Assembly (NCBI GenBank): GCA_017460915.1
Contig: JAFUAA010000010.1
Location: 26,153-90,152 of the forward strand
Source of the DNA: Bacteroidales bacterium
Lineage (GTDB): Bacteria; Bacteroidota; Bacteroidia; Bacteroidales; F082
DNA: 64,000 nt
Reading direction: 5' to 3'
The position numbers and the translations under genes are program-made. The notes under the pieces were generated by a model that made no database searches, was not told the origin of the DNA, and was given only the letters and a program-made list of their open reading frames with translations. Every line of letters starts with the position of its first letter. Position 1 is the first letter of the stretch. This document shows, in pieces, positions 19,641 through 24,592 of the stretch.

Positions 19641-20309
19641 ATGACTGAAAAAGACGCTATCGTCGCCCGCCATTCGGTGCGACAATACCTTGAAAAGCCC
19701 ATCGAGGCGGAAAAAATCGAAGAACTGAAAGCCCTCATCGCCGAATGTAACCGCGAGGGTGGAACGCACATGCAATTGGTGACCAACGAGCCAAAAGCCT
19801 TCGCAGGCGGTATGGCCAAATACGGCAAGTTCAGCGGCATCAGCAATTATATTGCGGTCGTCGGGAAGAAAGGCGACGACACCAACCTCGGCTATTACGG
19901 CGAGAAGATGGTCGTCCGCGCCCAGATGCTCGGCCTCAACACCTGCTGGGTCGGGATGATGTTCAGCAAACAGCCCGATTCGTACCAAGTGCTGGATGAC
20001 GAGAAACTGTTATGCGTCATCGCGTTGGGCTATGGCGCCAACCAAGGAGTGCAGCACAAGCTGAAGCCCATCGGGGATTTCGCGGAAGTGAGCGGCCCGA
20101 TGCCCGAATGGTTCCGCCAGGGAATGGAAATGGCCATACTCGCACCTACGGCAGTCAACCAGCAGAAATTTAAGTTCGTGCTTCGCGACGGCAACCGCGT
20201 GGAGGCACAATCCCGCTTTTCCCTCATCGGCTATGCCAAACTCGACCTCGGCATTGCCAAGTACCATTTTGAGGTGGGCGCGGGAAAGGAGCATTTTGAA
20301 TGGTGTTGA
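19641..20309 (+). CDS. Nitroreductase family protein (TM1586-like)
   Basis: 222 residues starting MTEKDAIVARHSVRQYLEKP, the classic FMN-binding opening of nitroreductases with the RxSxR motif. Later parts include GGTHMQLV, GYYGEKMVVRAQMLGLNTCWVGMMF and LGYG in the FMN fold, and APTAVNQQKFKFVLRDG toward the C-terminus, which resembles the putative TM nitroreductase branch that contains two half-domains in one chain. These FMN flavoproteins reduce nitro or quinone compounds using NAD(P)H; the natural substrate is unknown. The next gene starts 5 bp downstream, so both are likely co-transcribed. Confidence 0.82.
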   Translation: MTEKDAIVARHSVRQYLEKPIEAEKIEELKALIAECNREGGTHMQLVTNEPKAFAGGMAKYGKFSGISNYIAVVGKKGDDTNLGYYGEKMVVRAQMLGLNTCWVGMMFSKQPDSYQVLDDEKLLCVIALGYGANQGVQHKLKPIGDFAEVSGPMPEWFRQGMEMAILAPTAVNQQKFKFVLRDGNRVEAQSRFSLIGYAKLDLGIAKYHFEVGAGKEHFEWC

Positions 20310-20314
20310 AACCT

Positions 20315-21148
20315 ATGAAATACTACATTGTTGATGCTTTCACCGACCAACCTTTCGGGGGTAATCCGGCAGGCGTGGTGCTGCTGGAGGGCGAGGCCTT
20401 CCCGGAAGAGAAGCTGATGCTGCAAATCGCGGCAGAACTGCGTTATTCGGAGACGGCGTTCGTCAGGCGACATTCGGAGAAGGAGTTCACCATCCGCTAT
20501 TTCACGCCGAAGGCCGAGGTGGAGCTTTGTGGCCATGCCACGATAGCCTCATTCGCTTTGTTGCACCAAAAAGGCTTGGCCTCGGGCAAATGCCTATGCC
20601 ACACTTTGGCCGGAGACCTGACAATCGAGGCTGGTAAACAGGTGATGATGCAGATGGCCCAGCCTCGCATCGTGGCGAGCGTGGAAAATGCTGACGAAAT
20701 ATACAAGGCATTGGGAATAAACGATTTCCGTCCACAAATGCCCGTTCAAATCGTTTACGCGGGTCTTCCCGATTTTATGATTCAGGTGCCCGATGTGGCG
20801 GTTTTGCAGTCGCTGAAACCCGATATGGAGGCCATCGCCGACATCACCAAGCGGCACGAGGCGGTAAGTTTCCACGTTTTCGCCTTCAGCAACGACGGCT
20901 ACACGGCCCACGTCCGCGATTTCGCGCCCTTGTATGGCGTTCCCGAGGAATCTGCGACGGGCACGGCCAACGCTGCCCTGACCTATTATCTGCAACAATG
21001 CGGCTGCCTCGGCTCCGAGGCGGAGTGCACCTTCATCCAAGGCGAGGCTATGGGGCGGCCTTCCGTCGTTGCCACCCGTATCCAATCCGACGGCAACATC
21101 TATGTGGGCGGCACGGCGGCTATTGTGGCGGAGGGGAATTTGTTGTGA
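20315..21148 (+). CDS. PhzF-family isomerase
   Basis: The start at 20315 (MKYYIVDAFTDQPFGGNPAG) is preferred to the ATG at 20300 that would overlap the nitroreductase. The 277-residue protein has the twofold diaminopimelate epimerase-like fold of PhzF: FGGNPAGVV, LRYSETAFVRR with the catalytic Glu, TPKAEVELCGHATIASFALL in the first half, and AFSNDGYTAHVRDFAPLYG, PEESATGTANAALTYYL in the second. PhzF enzymes isomerise dihydro-hydroxyanthranilate in phenazine synthesis, but most housekeeping homologues have unknown substrates, and no phenazine genes are near. Confidence 0.87.
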   Translation: MKYYIVDAFTDQPFGGNPAGVVLLEGEAFPEEKLMLQIAAELRYSETAFVRRHSEKEFTIRYFTPKAEVELCGHATIASFALLHQKGLASGKCLCHTLAGDLTIEAGKQVMMQMAQPRIVASVENADEIYKALGINDFRPQMPVQIVYAGLPDFMIQVPDVAVLQSLKPDMEAIADITKRHEAVSFHVFAFSNDGYTAHVRDFAPLYGVPEESATGTANAALTYYLQQCGCLGSEAECTFIQGEAMGRPSVVATRIQSDGNIYVGGTAAIVAEGNLL

Positions 21149-22090: not shown

Positions 22091-22660
22091 TTAGCTCAAA
22101 TTCTTCAAAAACCACTCATGCACCCGCAAGTCATCGTCCAGTTCGGGATGGAAGGAAGTGACCAATTGATTGCCTTGCCGAGCGGCCACAATGTGCCCAT
22201 CGACTTCGGCAAGAACCTCGCAATCAGGTGATAGAATTTCTTCAATATACGGAGCGCGGATGAAAGTCATAGGAATGTCGTCGCCAAGGCCTTTCATCGA
22301 GCCCAAAGTGTGGAAACTGCCCAATTGTCGTCCGTAGGCATTGCGCCGCACGCGGATGTCCATCGTGGCGAGACGACGGCGAGAGTCGTTGGTCGTTTCC
22401 TTGGCCAAAAGAATCATCCCTGCGCAAGTGCCGAAGACGGGCAAACCGCGTTCGATGGCCGCTTTGACAGCATCGAACAGGCCGAGGTCGTGCAGCAGTT
22501 TCAGTTGGGTCGTGCTTTCGCCGCCAGGCAGGATGATGCCGTCTTTTTCCCGTTCCCAATCGGCGGGCGAATGGATTTCAAACGCCTCTGCACCAATGCG
22601 ATGGAGCATTTGCAAGTGTTCGGCAAACGCCCCTTGCAATGCGAAAACGCCAATCTTCAT
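22091..22660 (-). CDS. pdxT: Pyridoxal 5'-phosphate synthase glutaminase subunit PdxT
   Basis: 189 residues. Class I glutamine amidotransferase fold with MKIGVFALQGAFAEHLQML, the oxyanion PGGESTTQ, catalytic Cys in FGTCAGMILLAK and the His-Glu pair in TSFHPEL. It supplies ammonia through a tunnel to PdxS, which condenses ribose 5-phosphate and glyceraldehyde 3-phosphate to PLP. The start is 1 bp after the pdxS stop, so the two are translated from one message. Length and motifs are all standard. Confidence 0.96.
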   Translation of the reverse strand: MKIGVFALQGAFAEHLQMLHRIGAEAFEIHSPADWEREKDGIILPGGESTTQLKLLHDLGLFDAVKAAIERGLPVFGTCAGMILLAKETTNDSRRRLATMDIRVRRNAYGRQLGSFHTLGSMKGLGDDIPMTFIRAPYIEEILSPDCEVLAEVDGHIVAARQGNQLVTSFHPELDDDLRVHEWFLKNLS

Positions 22661-22661
22661 C

Positions 22662-23537
22662 TCATTGCCCTCTCTCCGCCATCAGCAGTGCGATTTCCTG
22701 CTCGTTGATGCCCACCATCGCCTCGCCCAAGTCTTCCGAAAGCTCGGCGAGCCGTTTTGCGTCGGTGTAGTTGGTGACGGCTTGCACGATGGCGGCGGCG
22801 CGTTTGGCGGGATTGCCGCTCTTGAAGATGCCGCTGCCCACAAACACGCCCTCGGCGCCAAGTTGCATCATCAGCGCGGCGTCGGCGGGAGTGGCCACGC
22901 CACCGGCGGCGAAGTTCACCACGGGCAGTTTGCCGTTTTCGTGGACGAAAACCACCAAATCGTATGGCACCTGCAGTTGCTTGGCGGCCTCGAAAAGCTC
23001 ATCGTCGCGCATCGCCACAAGTTTCCGGATTTCGCTCTGCATGCAACGCATGTGGCGCACCGCTTGGACAATGTCGCCCGTGCCAGGTTCGCCCTTGGTG
23101 CGGATCATCGTGGCACCTTCGGCAATGCGGCGCAAGGCCTCGCCCAGATTGCGCGCTCCGCACACGAAAGGCACGCGGAACTGGGTCTTGTCGATGTGAT
23201 AGATGTCGTCGGCAGGCGAAAGCACTTCGCTTTCGTCAATGTAGTCAATGTCGATGGCTTGTAGGATTTGTGCCTCGGCGATGTGCCCGATACGGCATTT
23301 TGCCATCACAGGGATGCTGACGGCTTCCTGGATGCCACGAATCATCTTCGGATCGCTCATGCGCGACACACCGCCTGCCGCGCGAATGTCGGCGGGAATG
23401 CGTTCCAAGGCCATCACCGCGCAGGCTCCGGCGGCTTCGGCGATACGGGCTTGTTCGGGCGTGGTCACGTCCATGATGACACCGCCTTTCAGCATCTGTG
23501 CGAGTTGGCGGTTGAGTTGTTGTCTGTCGTTATTCAT
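22662..23537 (-). CDS. pdxS: Pyridoxal 5'-phosphate synthase subunit PdxS
   Basis: 291 residues, a TIM barrel. Recognisable parts are [119 protein letters not shown] and [11 protein letters not shown]. Active-site lysines (MAKCR-type and the K of RTKGEPG) are present. It is encoded 38 bp downstream of a ThiD-like/AraC fusion in the same direction and directly followed by pdxT. No separate -7 element is visible in the 38-bp gap, so it is probably co-transcribed with the upstream gene. Confidence 0.97.
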
Positions 23538-23575
23538 AGTAGTAGTTTAAGTTTTGGGTCGGGCCTTCGACAGGC

Positions 23576-24514
23576 TCAGGCACCTTTTGCTTTATTACGA
23601 TATTGTGTCGGTGATAAGTGTCTCATTTTTCGGAAGAAACGCGAGAGTTGCGCCTGCGAGCTGAAGCCTAATCCGATGGCAATTTCCTGCACGGTTTGGT
23701 CGGAATGCAGCAGCCTTTGCTCGATTTCTCGGACGATGCGTTCGTCAATCATCGTCTTGGGCGACTTGCTGGAAAAGCGTTTTGTGACCTGTGCCAGATA
23801 GCGGCTGCTCACATTGAGTTGTTCGGCATAGAACGCCACGTCGTTGTAATGCGCAAAGAAGCGTTCCACGCTGTCAAGGAAACGGTTGTAGAGCGCGGCG
23901 GCGCGACCGTTTTGCTCAGTCGGCTCGGGCGCGAGTTGTTCCAGATATTTTTCCGCTTCGGCGATGGCGGTCGGCAAATCCGCGCCGCGACTGAGCATCA
24001 CGGCGATGGCCGACGAAAGCAAGTTGCCGTGTCCGTGACCCTGCAATTTATTGATAACCAAAAGTTTTTGGTTTTGGATTTTGAAAAGATCCTTGTCCTC
24101 GGCACGCACGATGACCAAGGTGCACAAAGGCAGCAGGTGTTTCCTGACGGCTTGCATCACCTCGGCGGACATCAGTTCGTCGCCGTTGGCGGAGCGCACC
24201 ACGGGGTCGAAGATGATGTGCTTCGGGCGGTAGCGTTTCAGGATTTCGGTCACGGTCACCACCACATCGGTGCGACGCAACATTCCGATTTTGACGGTCT
24301 GCGGCTCCTCGTCGTTGAAAATCGCCTCAATTTGGCTGCCGACCACGGCGGCGGGCAGGTCGAAGAACGACTGGATGCCCAAGGTGCTTTGTGCGGTGAT
24401 GCTGGTGATGGCGGTGGCGGCCTTCGCGCCCAAGGCGGTGATGGTGCGGATGTCGGCCTGCACGCCCGAACCGCCCGTGCCGTCGCTACCCGTAATGCTC
24501 AAAATGGTTTTCAT
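23576..24514 (-). CDS. ThiD-like (pyrimidine/pyridoxal kinase fold) domain fused to AraC-type DNA-binding domain
   Basis: 312 residues starting MKTILSITGSDGTGGSGVQAD; the longer upstream start adds unrelated sequence. Residues 1-185 follow ThiD (HMP/HMP-P kinase): ITSITAQSTLGIQ, EPQTVKIGML, IIFDPVVRSANGDEL. Relative to E. coli ThiD, about 50 residues spanning the TPN and KGGH nucleotide-binding segments are missing, and the catalytic THGTGC is replaced by GHGHGN, so the kinase step is probably lost while the vitamin-binding half remains. Residues about 205-312 form an AraC double helix-turn-helix: DVAFYAEQLNVSSRYLAQ, KTMIDERIVREIEQRLL, VQEIAIGLGFSSQAQLSRFF. It lies just upstream of pdxS-pdxT in the same direction, so it is likely a ligand-sensing regulator of PLP synthesis. 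Ligand identity (pyridoxal, PLP or HMP) is inference. Confidence 0.85.
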   Translation of the reverse strand: MKTILSITGSDGTGGSGVQADIRTITALGAKAATAITSITAQSTLGIQSFFDLPAAVVGSQIEAIFNDEEPQTVKIGMLRRTDVVVTVTEILKRYRPKHIIFDPVVRSANGDELMSAEVMQAVRKHLLPLCTLVIVRAEDKDLFKIQNQKLLVINKLQGHGHGNLLSSAIAVMLSRGADLPTAIAEAEKYLEQLAPEPTEQNGRAAALYNRFLDSVERFFAHYNDVAFYAEQLNVSSRYLAQVTKRFSSKSPKTMIDERIVREIEQRLLHSDQTVQEIAIGLGFSSQAQLSRFFRKMRHLSPTQYRNKAKGA

Positions 24515-24592
24515 CTCGCTCGAATTTGACTGCAAAGAGCGCAAATTTCCGCGAAACGGCAAAACGAATTTCCGTTTTTGGAAAAGAAAATG

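Follow-up and report, generated by a model that had tools for sequence, protein, structure and literature searches.

A kinase-dead ThiD-like domain fused to an AraC DNA-binding domain, a candidate regulator of PLP synthesis genes in Bacteroidales

The fusion gene and its neighbours

The window, by which we mean the whole stretch of 64,000 nucleotides analysed here, encodes a protein that joins a ThiD-like part to an AraC-type DNA-binding domain, and this gene is followed on the same strand by pdxS and pdxT (Table 1). The coordinates give exactly the 38 bp between regulator and pdxS, in the same direction, that the first-pass annotation of the sequence had reported. With Pfam, we detected Phos_pyr_kin (4e-46, best stretch residues 11–135) and HTH_18 (PF12833, residues 229–307, 4.7e-20, 72.1 bits versus a cut-off of 33.6). 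The protein covers only positions 1–124 and 190–232 of the Phos_pyr_kin profile, i.e. the whole-length ThiD fold is absent. When aligned to solved ThiDs, it runs ungapped as far as residue ~138, and the match picks up again near the GTGC region; compared to 4jjp, residue 137 corresponds to 144 and residue 141 to 195, such that about 50 residues are gone, with KGGH among these. The same alignment places IVR at the TPN position and GHGN at the GTGC position. Pfam and the solved ThiDs thus bear out the earlier claims that a ThiD-like domain is fused to an AraC HTH, that a TPN and KGGH stretch of about 50 residues is missing and that GTGC reads GHGN.

Table 1. Features of the regulator-pdxST locus (positions in the window)
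Feature	Position	Strand	Remark
ThiD-AraC regulator ORF	23576..24514	-	312 aa; dead truncated ThiD-like part (residues 1 to ~195) and AraC HTH
ThiD-like sensor part (putative)	23930..24514	-	TPN reads IVR; KGGH lobe absent (~50 aa); GTGC reads GHGN
AraC HTH_18 DNA-binding domain	23591..23830	-	residues ~229–308; Pfam
pdxS, PLP synthase subunit (SOR/SNZ)	22662..23537	-	SOR_SNZ 1.7e-107
pdxT, glutaminase subunit (SNO)	22091..22660	-	SNO 5.1e-58
Candidate operator half-site CCAAAAACGGAA	24570..24581	-	GGAA ends 33 bp before TTTGC
Candidate -33 element TTTTG	24560..24564	-	putative; after the consensus in the available part of PMC7366714
TTTGC core, candidate -7 element for the regulator-pdxST operon	24532..24536	-	GCTCTTTG

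The same truncated gene also precedes pdxS in two other genomes (L098 and L099, 98% and 71% identity), and the dN/dS of the truncated ThiD part between the window and these two is 0.05 and 0.14. We thus conclude that the window gene is not a local assembly error. No Rfam families and no tRNAs were found in the window, which gives no sign of RNA control.

The cassette of regulator and pdxST (22091–24514) has a G+C content of 0.572, compared to a mean of 0.502 and a maximum of 0.575 for 2.4-kb stretches of the window. Its PdxS is 90–91% identical to copies from Prevotella and Prevotellaceae and 77–79% identical to those from species of its own genus that carry a full-length fusion. Both observations point to a possible horizontal gain of the cassette. 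A protein of the PhzF family is encoded near pdxST (20300–21148, plus strand); PhzF-related COG384 genes are reported from MocR PdxQ regulons in the available part of PMC5320631.

A family of dead ThiD-AraC fusions linked to pdxS

Relatives were collected from 295 genomes of the order, 173 genomes of the family and GTDB contigs, from which open reading frames were extracted. We found at least 34 distinct ThiD-AraC fusion genes in Bacteroidales (the window gene, 19 and 14 others). The scan of GTDB contigs, which covered the best 80 of 580 relatives, contributed at least 16 fusion loci, or at least 14 once the duplicates L101 and L107 are removed. Four extra fusions that were found later (L245, L246, L247 and L249) are outside the 34-gene counts. 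Among the carriers are Palleniella muris (Prevotellaceae) and MAGs of Prevotella, Prevotellaceae and Paludibacteraceae; in addition, Candidatus Colimorpha merdihippi carries a paralogue of the fusion. In the scan of 395 Bacteroidota genomes (first-look candidates at E ≤ 1e-40, up to five scored per genome), which listed only five further genomes of the window's order, none of the matches listed for genomes other than the window genome extended past profile position 245 into the AraC part, and a plasmid collection contained no place with 80% query coverage. A 280-aa AraC-type protein without ThiD (L043:7328–8170, plus strand) is 41% identical to the window protein in its C-terminal part and may be close to the origin of the fused HTH.

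Ten of the 34 fusions are truncated like the window protein, whereas the other 24 have the full kinase length (one of these, L097, is cut by the contig end). In a tree of 33 fusions (without L097) and seven ThiDs, all fusions form one clade with support 100/100. The ten truncated fusions also group together, with moderate support (85/74), and lie close to the full-length fusions L109 and L110. From this grouping, a single fusion event followed by a single trimming is the most parsimonious account.

For the motif counts, the 34 fusions were aligned with 69 ThiDs that have no AraC part. The catalytic Cys of GTGC, the Asn of TPN and the Lys of KGGH are each present in 69/69 ThiDs and in none of the fusions, where the position of the Lys is deleted in ten. 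We take the TPN Asn and the KGGH Lys to form the nucleotide/Mg site of ThiD. The Thr of GTGC is likewise found in 67/69 ThiDs and in no fusion. At the position of the TPN Asn, the fusions have Arg (19), Lys (13) or another residue (two), and the former Cys loop now contains Gly, Asn, Ser or Ala. As full-length fusions, which might still fold around ATP, also lack the motifs, catalysis was probably gone before the lobe. Among the 34 fusions, no homologue with intact motifs thus contradicts the kinase-dead reading of the window protein.

Other residues are retained: all 34 fusions have the Asp of GSD, the Asp of QAD, the Lys of KIGM and the His-Gly of HGTGC. The Gln of AQ(N/S)T is found in 27/34 fusions and is replaced or deleted in the other seven (0/69 in ThiDs); in L095 and L096 the AQNT loop is wholly deleted. 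The Asp of DPV is found in 12/34. Across the family, the substrate half that the first-pass annotation had called preserved is therefore not uniformly so. The dN/dS of the ThiD part is 0.05–0.14 in seven of nine pairs, with two pairs saturated, and is similar to the value for the AraC part. One full-length dead fusion (L102:269–1336, plus strand) reaches 207.9 bits with the NCBI model TIGR00097, for which the equivalog cut-off is 204.95; L108 and L118, the other two fusions scanned, are below it.

When looking at the genomic context, we observed that 29/34 fusions are immediate 5' neighbours of pdxS, with 23 in the same orientation (gaps of -8 to 511 bp) and six divergent. The five fusions that are not beside pdxS are L034, L118, L120, L108 and L097, the last being cut by the contig end. 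Seen from pdxS, the picture depends on the sample. In the window's family, pdxS occurs in 13/173 genomes, the fusion occurs in the same 13 and the two are adjacent in 13/13, but these co-occurrences are not independent as all genomes come from one genus. In the family of G111, pdxS is found in 7/15 genomes with the fusion adjacent in 6/7. In the order sample, 13/295 genomes have pdxS, of which six have the fusion and seven have none. The adjacency to pdxST that the first-pass annotation had proposed to follow in relatives thus holds for most fusions, and from the side of pdxS it holds within both families but in only about half of the order-wide cases.

In the order sample, PdxS is 84–100% identical to that of the window in the six genomes with the fusion and 68–81% identical in the seven without. 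This identity is no general divider, as PdxS of the full-length group of the window's genus is at 77–79%. The neighbours of the seven fusion-less pdxS genes are, by eye, not MocR-like. Three fusion-less loci from one family (L210, L211 and L212) have pdxST after a galactose-mutarotase-like gene, named by reading the sequence, and thus share a context of another kind. Across 29 loci including the unlinked one of P. muris, identities of regulator and PdxS correlate (Spearman 0.54; Mantel 0/2000). Linkage and correlated identities would fit a co-inherited unit; plain vertical descent fits too.

Some loci deviate from this arrangement. Truncated paralogues with HGRCNE for HGTGC and no adjacent pdxS are found at L034:7773–8687 (minus strand), L118:3983–4927 (plus) and L120:3971–4906 (plus). 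No pdxS match was found in the genomes of L118 and L120, and genome G018 holds both fusion types, the paralogue and the pdxS type. In P. muris, the fusion (L108) and pdxS (L207) are on different contigs. About 3.2 kb from this unlinked fusion lies a further kinase of the ThiD fold (L108:8243–9064, minus strand; 27% identity to ThiD), which is cut by the locus end. The loci of the window's genus with full-length fusions (L087–L096) have no pdxT beside pdxS in a blast search with the window PdxT, with L095 being cut inside pdxS.

A candidate operator at pdxS promoters

The available part of PMC7366714 gives TAnnTTTG at -7 and TTTG near -33 as the consensus of the primary sigma factor in Bacteroides. 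The -7 candidate in the window, GCTCTTTG, is an imperfect match to TAnnTTTG. With this placement, the candidate half-site immediately precedes the -33 position, a common place for activators of the AraC type. Its consensus across loci is approximately TCAAAATSGGAA, with GGAA ending 33 or 34 bp before TTTG(C/T), and this spacing is more regular across loci than the tandem arrangement described below.

We counted this element in representatives of the regulator clusters at 65% identity, with 723 unrelated upstream stretches as the background. We found the strict form GGAA-N33/34-TTTGC in 8/14 regulator clusters compared to 2/723 background upstreams, the loose form [ACG]GAA-N33/34-TTTG[CT] in 12/14 compared to 13/723 and a half-site-aware form in 10/14 compared to 2/723; the spacing rule had been noticed on the same loci that were later counted. 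Among five loci that were fetched afterwards, the loose form is present in L245, L247 and L248 (within 300–390 bp) and absent in L246 and L249; L248 has no fusion within 1.5 kb. The element is absent from 7/7 fusion-less pdxS promoters, and it was not found in the 200 bp tested of L037, L103 and L039. The match in L035 looks like chance. In P. muris, the strict element is present at pdxS with the fusion elsewhere, which suggests that the fusion acts in trans; however, this element need not belong to the fusion as an ordinary AraC regulator is encoded there, 2.4 kb past pdxT.

Ten loci of the window's genus with full-length-type fusions (L087–L096) have two TCGGAATA-like half-sites 21 bp apart, the second of which ends 58–64 bp before the pdxS start codon. 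These loci served as the training set of a tandem matrix, whose scores were compared to 300 shuffles. The score was reached by no shuffle at L098, L099, L111, L102, L106 and L100, by one at L104 and at the pdxS promoter of P. muris (L207), by four at L103 and by six at L113. Further loci were reached by 11 (L036), 14 (L038), 19 (L110) and 21 shuffles (L109), or by 71 (L112), 80 (L037), 107 (L039), 108 (L035) and 199 (L105). For the seven fusion-less pdxS promoters the number was 30–253. The tandem match in the window is weak (13/300) and is carried by the half-site at 24570–24581 alone. Beyond the training loci, most matches are a single strong half-site, with both halves clear only in L102, L111 and L099, and the best tandem match in L104 and L100 is on the opposite strand. 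As direct repeats about 21 bp apart, the sites are clear in the training loci and in L102. Upstream of the paralogue L118 itself, a half-site matches strongly (0/300). A free motif search resulted in a log-likelihood of 197 compared to 100–118 in eight shuffles, a value that is inflated by close relatives.

Genome-wide, the pattern AAAANSGGAAN{33,34}TTTG is found at the pdxS locus in 8/12 fusion genomes, and it is the sole match in G358, G365 and G151. It misses the pdxS locus in the other four (G348, G018, G055 and G293). Four fusion-less genomes have 3, 4, 3 and 0 matches. In the window genome, the pattern occurs at five places, one of them at the regulator locus, compared to eight in the reversed control; as there is no excess over this control, further regulon members are unsupported in this genome.

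Proposed function and relation to known regulators

We consider it likely that the window protein is a dedicated transcription regulator of PLP synthesis, with a B6-vitamer sensor built on a dead kinase and an AraC part acting at the half-sites. The fusion, the motif loss, the retained residues, the linkage, the co-occurrence and the conserved promoter-proximal element are features of the genomes; DNA binding at this element, activation, the ligand and the sign of control are predicted from them. In this model, a single fusion event in Bacteroidales would have joined a ThiD-type kinase to an AraC HTH, and catalysis would then have been lost. In the window's branch, the lobe that binds ATP would have been lost as well, so that the half that binds the vitamer would remain as a sensor. 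The AraC part would bind half-sites of the TCAAAATSGGAA type, which one group with many sampled loci has as a tandem spaced by 21 bp. At the promoter of pdxS, or of regulator and pdxST together, it would sit immediately before the -33 region and activate pdxS from there. The most likely signal would be a B6 vitamer, either PLP or one without phosphate, that occupies the former kinase pocket, and B6 sufficiency would switch activation off. In the case of PLP, the phosphate could be held by the Arg or Lys that replaces the Asn of TPN.

The pathway context was surveyed in the genomes that carry the fusion. PdxJ is absent in 12/12 fusion genomes tested and also in three fusion-less genomes of the genus; without it, de novo synthesis in the 12 fusion genomes would seem to depend on PdxST alone. 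MocR regulators have about 450–500 aa. No GntR frame of this size was found in the same 12 genomes, whose GntR frames of 117–185 aa, plus one of 348 aa, are thus too short to be MocR. In the window genome (95.7% complete), we found no full-length Phos_pyr_kin protein, only one partial match at the cut-off in a 503-aa frame. In this context, PLP would be the most natural signal, and the ligand is probably a B6 vitamer. A more specific form of the model is a product sensor, in which the former kinase pocket holds PLP, the Arg or Lys (32/34) takes its 5'-phosphate and the Cys loop has been emptied; we put this at somewhat below an even chance. To our knowledge, such a protein would be the first PLP sensor to derive from a kinase, with no relation to the MocR type.

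Alternatively, the protein could regulate pdxST by sensing HMP or another thiamin precursor, thereby coupling B6 synthesis to thiamin status. The domain scores best with HMP/HMP-P kinase models (TIGR00097), and the AQNT Gln, which is presumably an HMP contact, is retained in most fusions. In addition, 2/29 pdxS-linked loci, L092 (6427–13161, minus strand) and L094 (1336–10114, plus strand), have a same-strand thiamin cluster upstream of fusion and pdxS, with ThiD, TMP synthase, ThiC, Thi4 and a second TMP synthase; the two come from related species of the window's genus. However, in the other 27 pdxS-linked loci no counterpart of the five L092 thiamin genes was found beside the fusion (blast at 1e-8, on unequal and sometimes short stretches), the window genome is without an evident ThiD to use HMP and the Gln is lost in seven fusions compared to no ThiD. 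We thus regard a thiamin signal as unlikely. A role that needs no small molecule, with the ThiD-like part serving as a dimerisation or structural module and control being exerted by DNA binding alone, appears quite improbable to us. ThiD folds dimerise, the catalytic and nucleotide motifs are gone in 34/34 and two fusions have lost even the AQNT loop; yet the GSD Asp, the QAD Asp, the KIGM Lys and the HGTGC His are kept in 34/34 despite the lost catalysis, and selection on the ThiD part is comparable to that on the AraC part.

The conserved Asp, Lys and His of the pocket could also be those of an enzyme of changed chemistry, e.g. a phosphatase or a B6 chaperone, that also binds DNA. As the window branch has lost the nucleotide lobe, and linkage and promoter element indicate regulation, we think that there is very little chance of this. 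We give practically no credence to a decaying pseudogene that is beside pdxS by chance: the domain is truncated, but its dN/dS is low in all pairs that are not saturated, the truncated form is common to ten genes that group together and 29/34 fusions are linked to pdxS. Compared to these alternatives, we favour the B6-sensing regulator. The interpretation of the first-pass annotation is thus largely supported: the linkage fits its view that the gene is placed to control PLP synthesis, with the candidate operator at the pdxS promoter as added support, whereas vitamin sensing and the identity of the vitamin are predictions.

Regulators whose sensor is an enzyme domain from the pathway they control are already known as a concept from MocR-type PdxR and ThiN repressors. 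ThiN-domain repressors of thiamin genes in archaea were reportedly described by Hwang et al. 2017. They resemble the fusion in concept, as an enzyme domain of a vitamin pathway is reused in a repressor, but differ in enzyme, HTH, vitamin and domain of life. According to the available part of PMC5320631, PdxR, a MocR protein with a GntR wHTH and an aminotransferase-like domain, regulates pdxST and occurs mostly in Proteobacteria, Firmicutes and Actinobacteria, with some MocR regulators listed in Bacteroidetes. Its sensor is a converted PLP-related enzyme fold (PMC5320631, available part), and in this, as in the proposed control of pdxST, the fusion resembles it. Both domains are unrelated, however: the window protein has neither a GntR wHTH nor an aminotransferase-like domain in Pfam, and the fusion instead combines an AraC HTH with a ThiD-like kinase fold.

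Compared to ThiD and ThiD2, i.e. HMP-P kinase and the pyridoxal kinase of that fold, homology is clear at residues 1–135 and around the GTGC helix, whereas all 34 fusions are without the Cys, the TPN Asn and the KGGH Lys and the window branch is without the ATP lobe. The fusion shares the C-terminal double HTH (HTH_18) with AraC/XylS regulators, and one group has tandem candidate sites at 21 bp beside the core promoter, but a dead vitamin kinase replaces the usual ligand domain. In the literature on ThiD, AraC and pdxST in Bacteroidales, consisting mostly of papers outside subscription, we found no description of such a regulator; the family, the domain pair and the operator appear to be new.

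For Bacteroidales that depend on PdxST (Prevotellaceae, Paludibacteraceae and others), our results present a candidate B6 regulator together with a candidate operator. They also reveal a path from enzyme to sensor of which all steps are extant, from active ThiD to the full-length dead fusion to the half-kinase fusion. As the full-length L102 passes the TIGR00097 cut-off, automatic annotation can name a dead fusion as a working HMP kinase, and such mislabelled fusions can distort predictions of thiamin and B6 auxotrophy. Some bacteria of the gut and rumen seem to have made a vitamin-processing enzyme into a gene switch, probably for the synthesis of B6.
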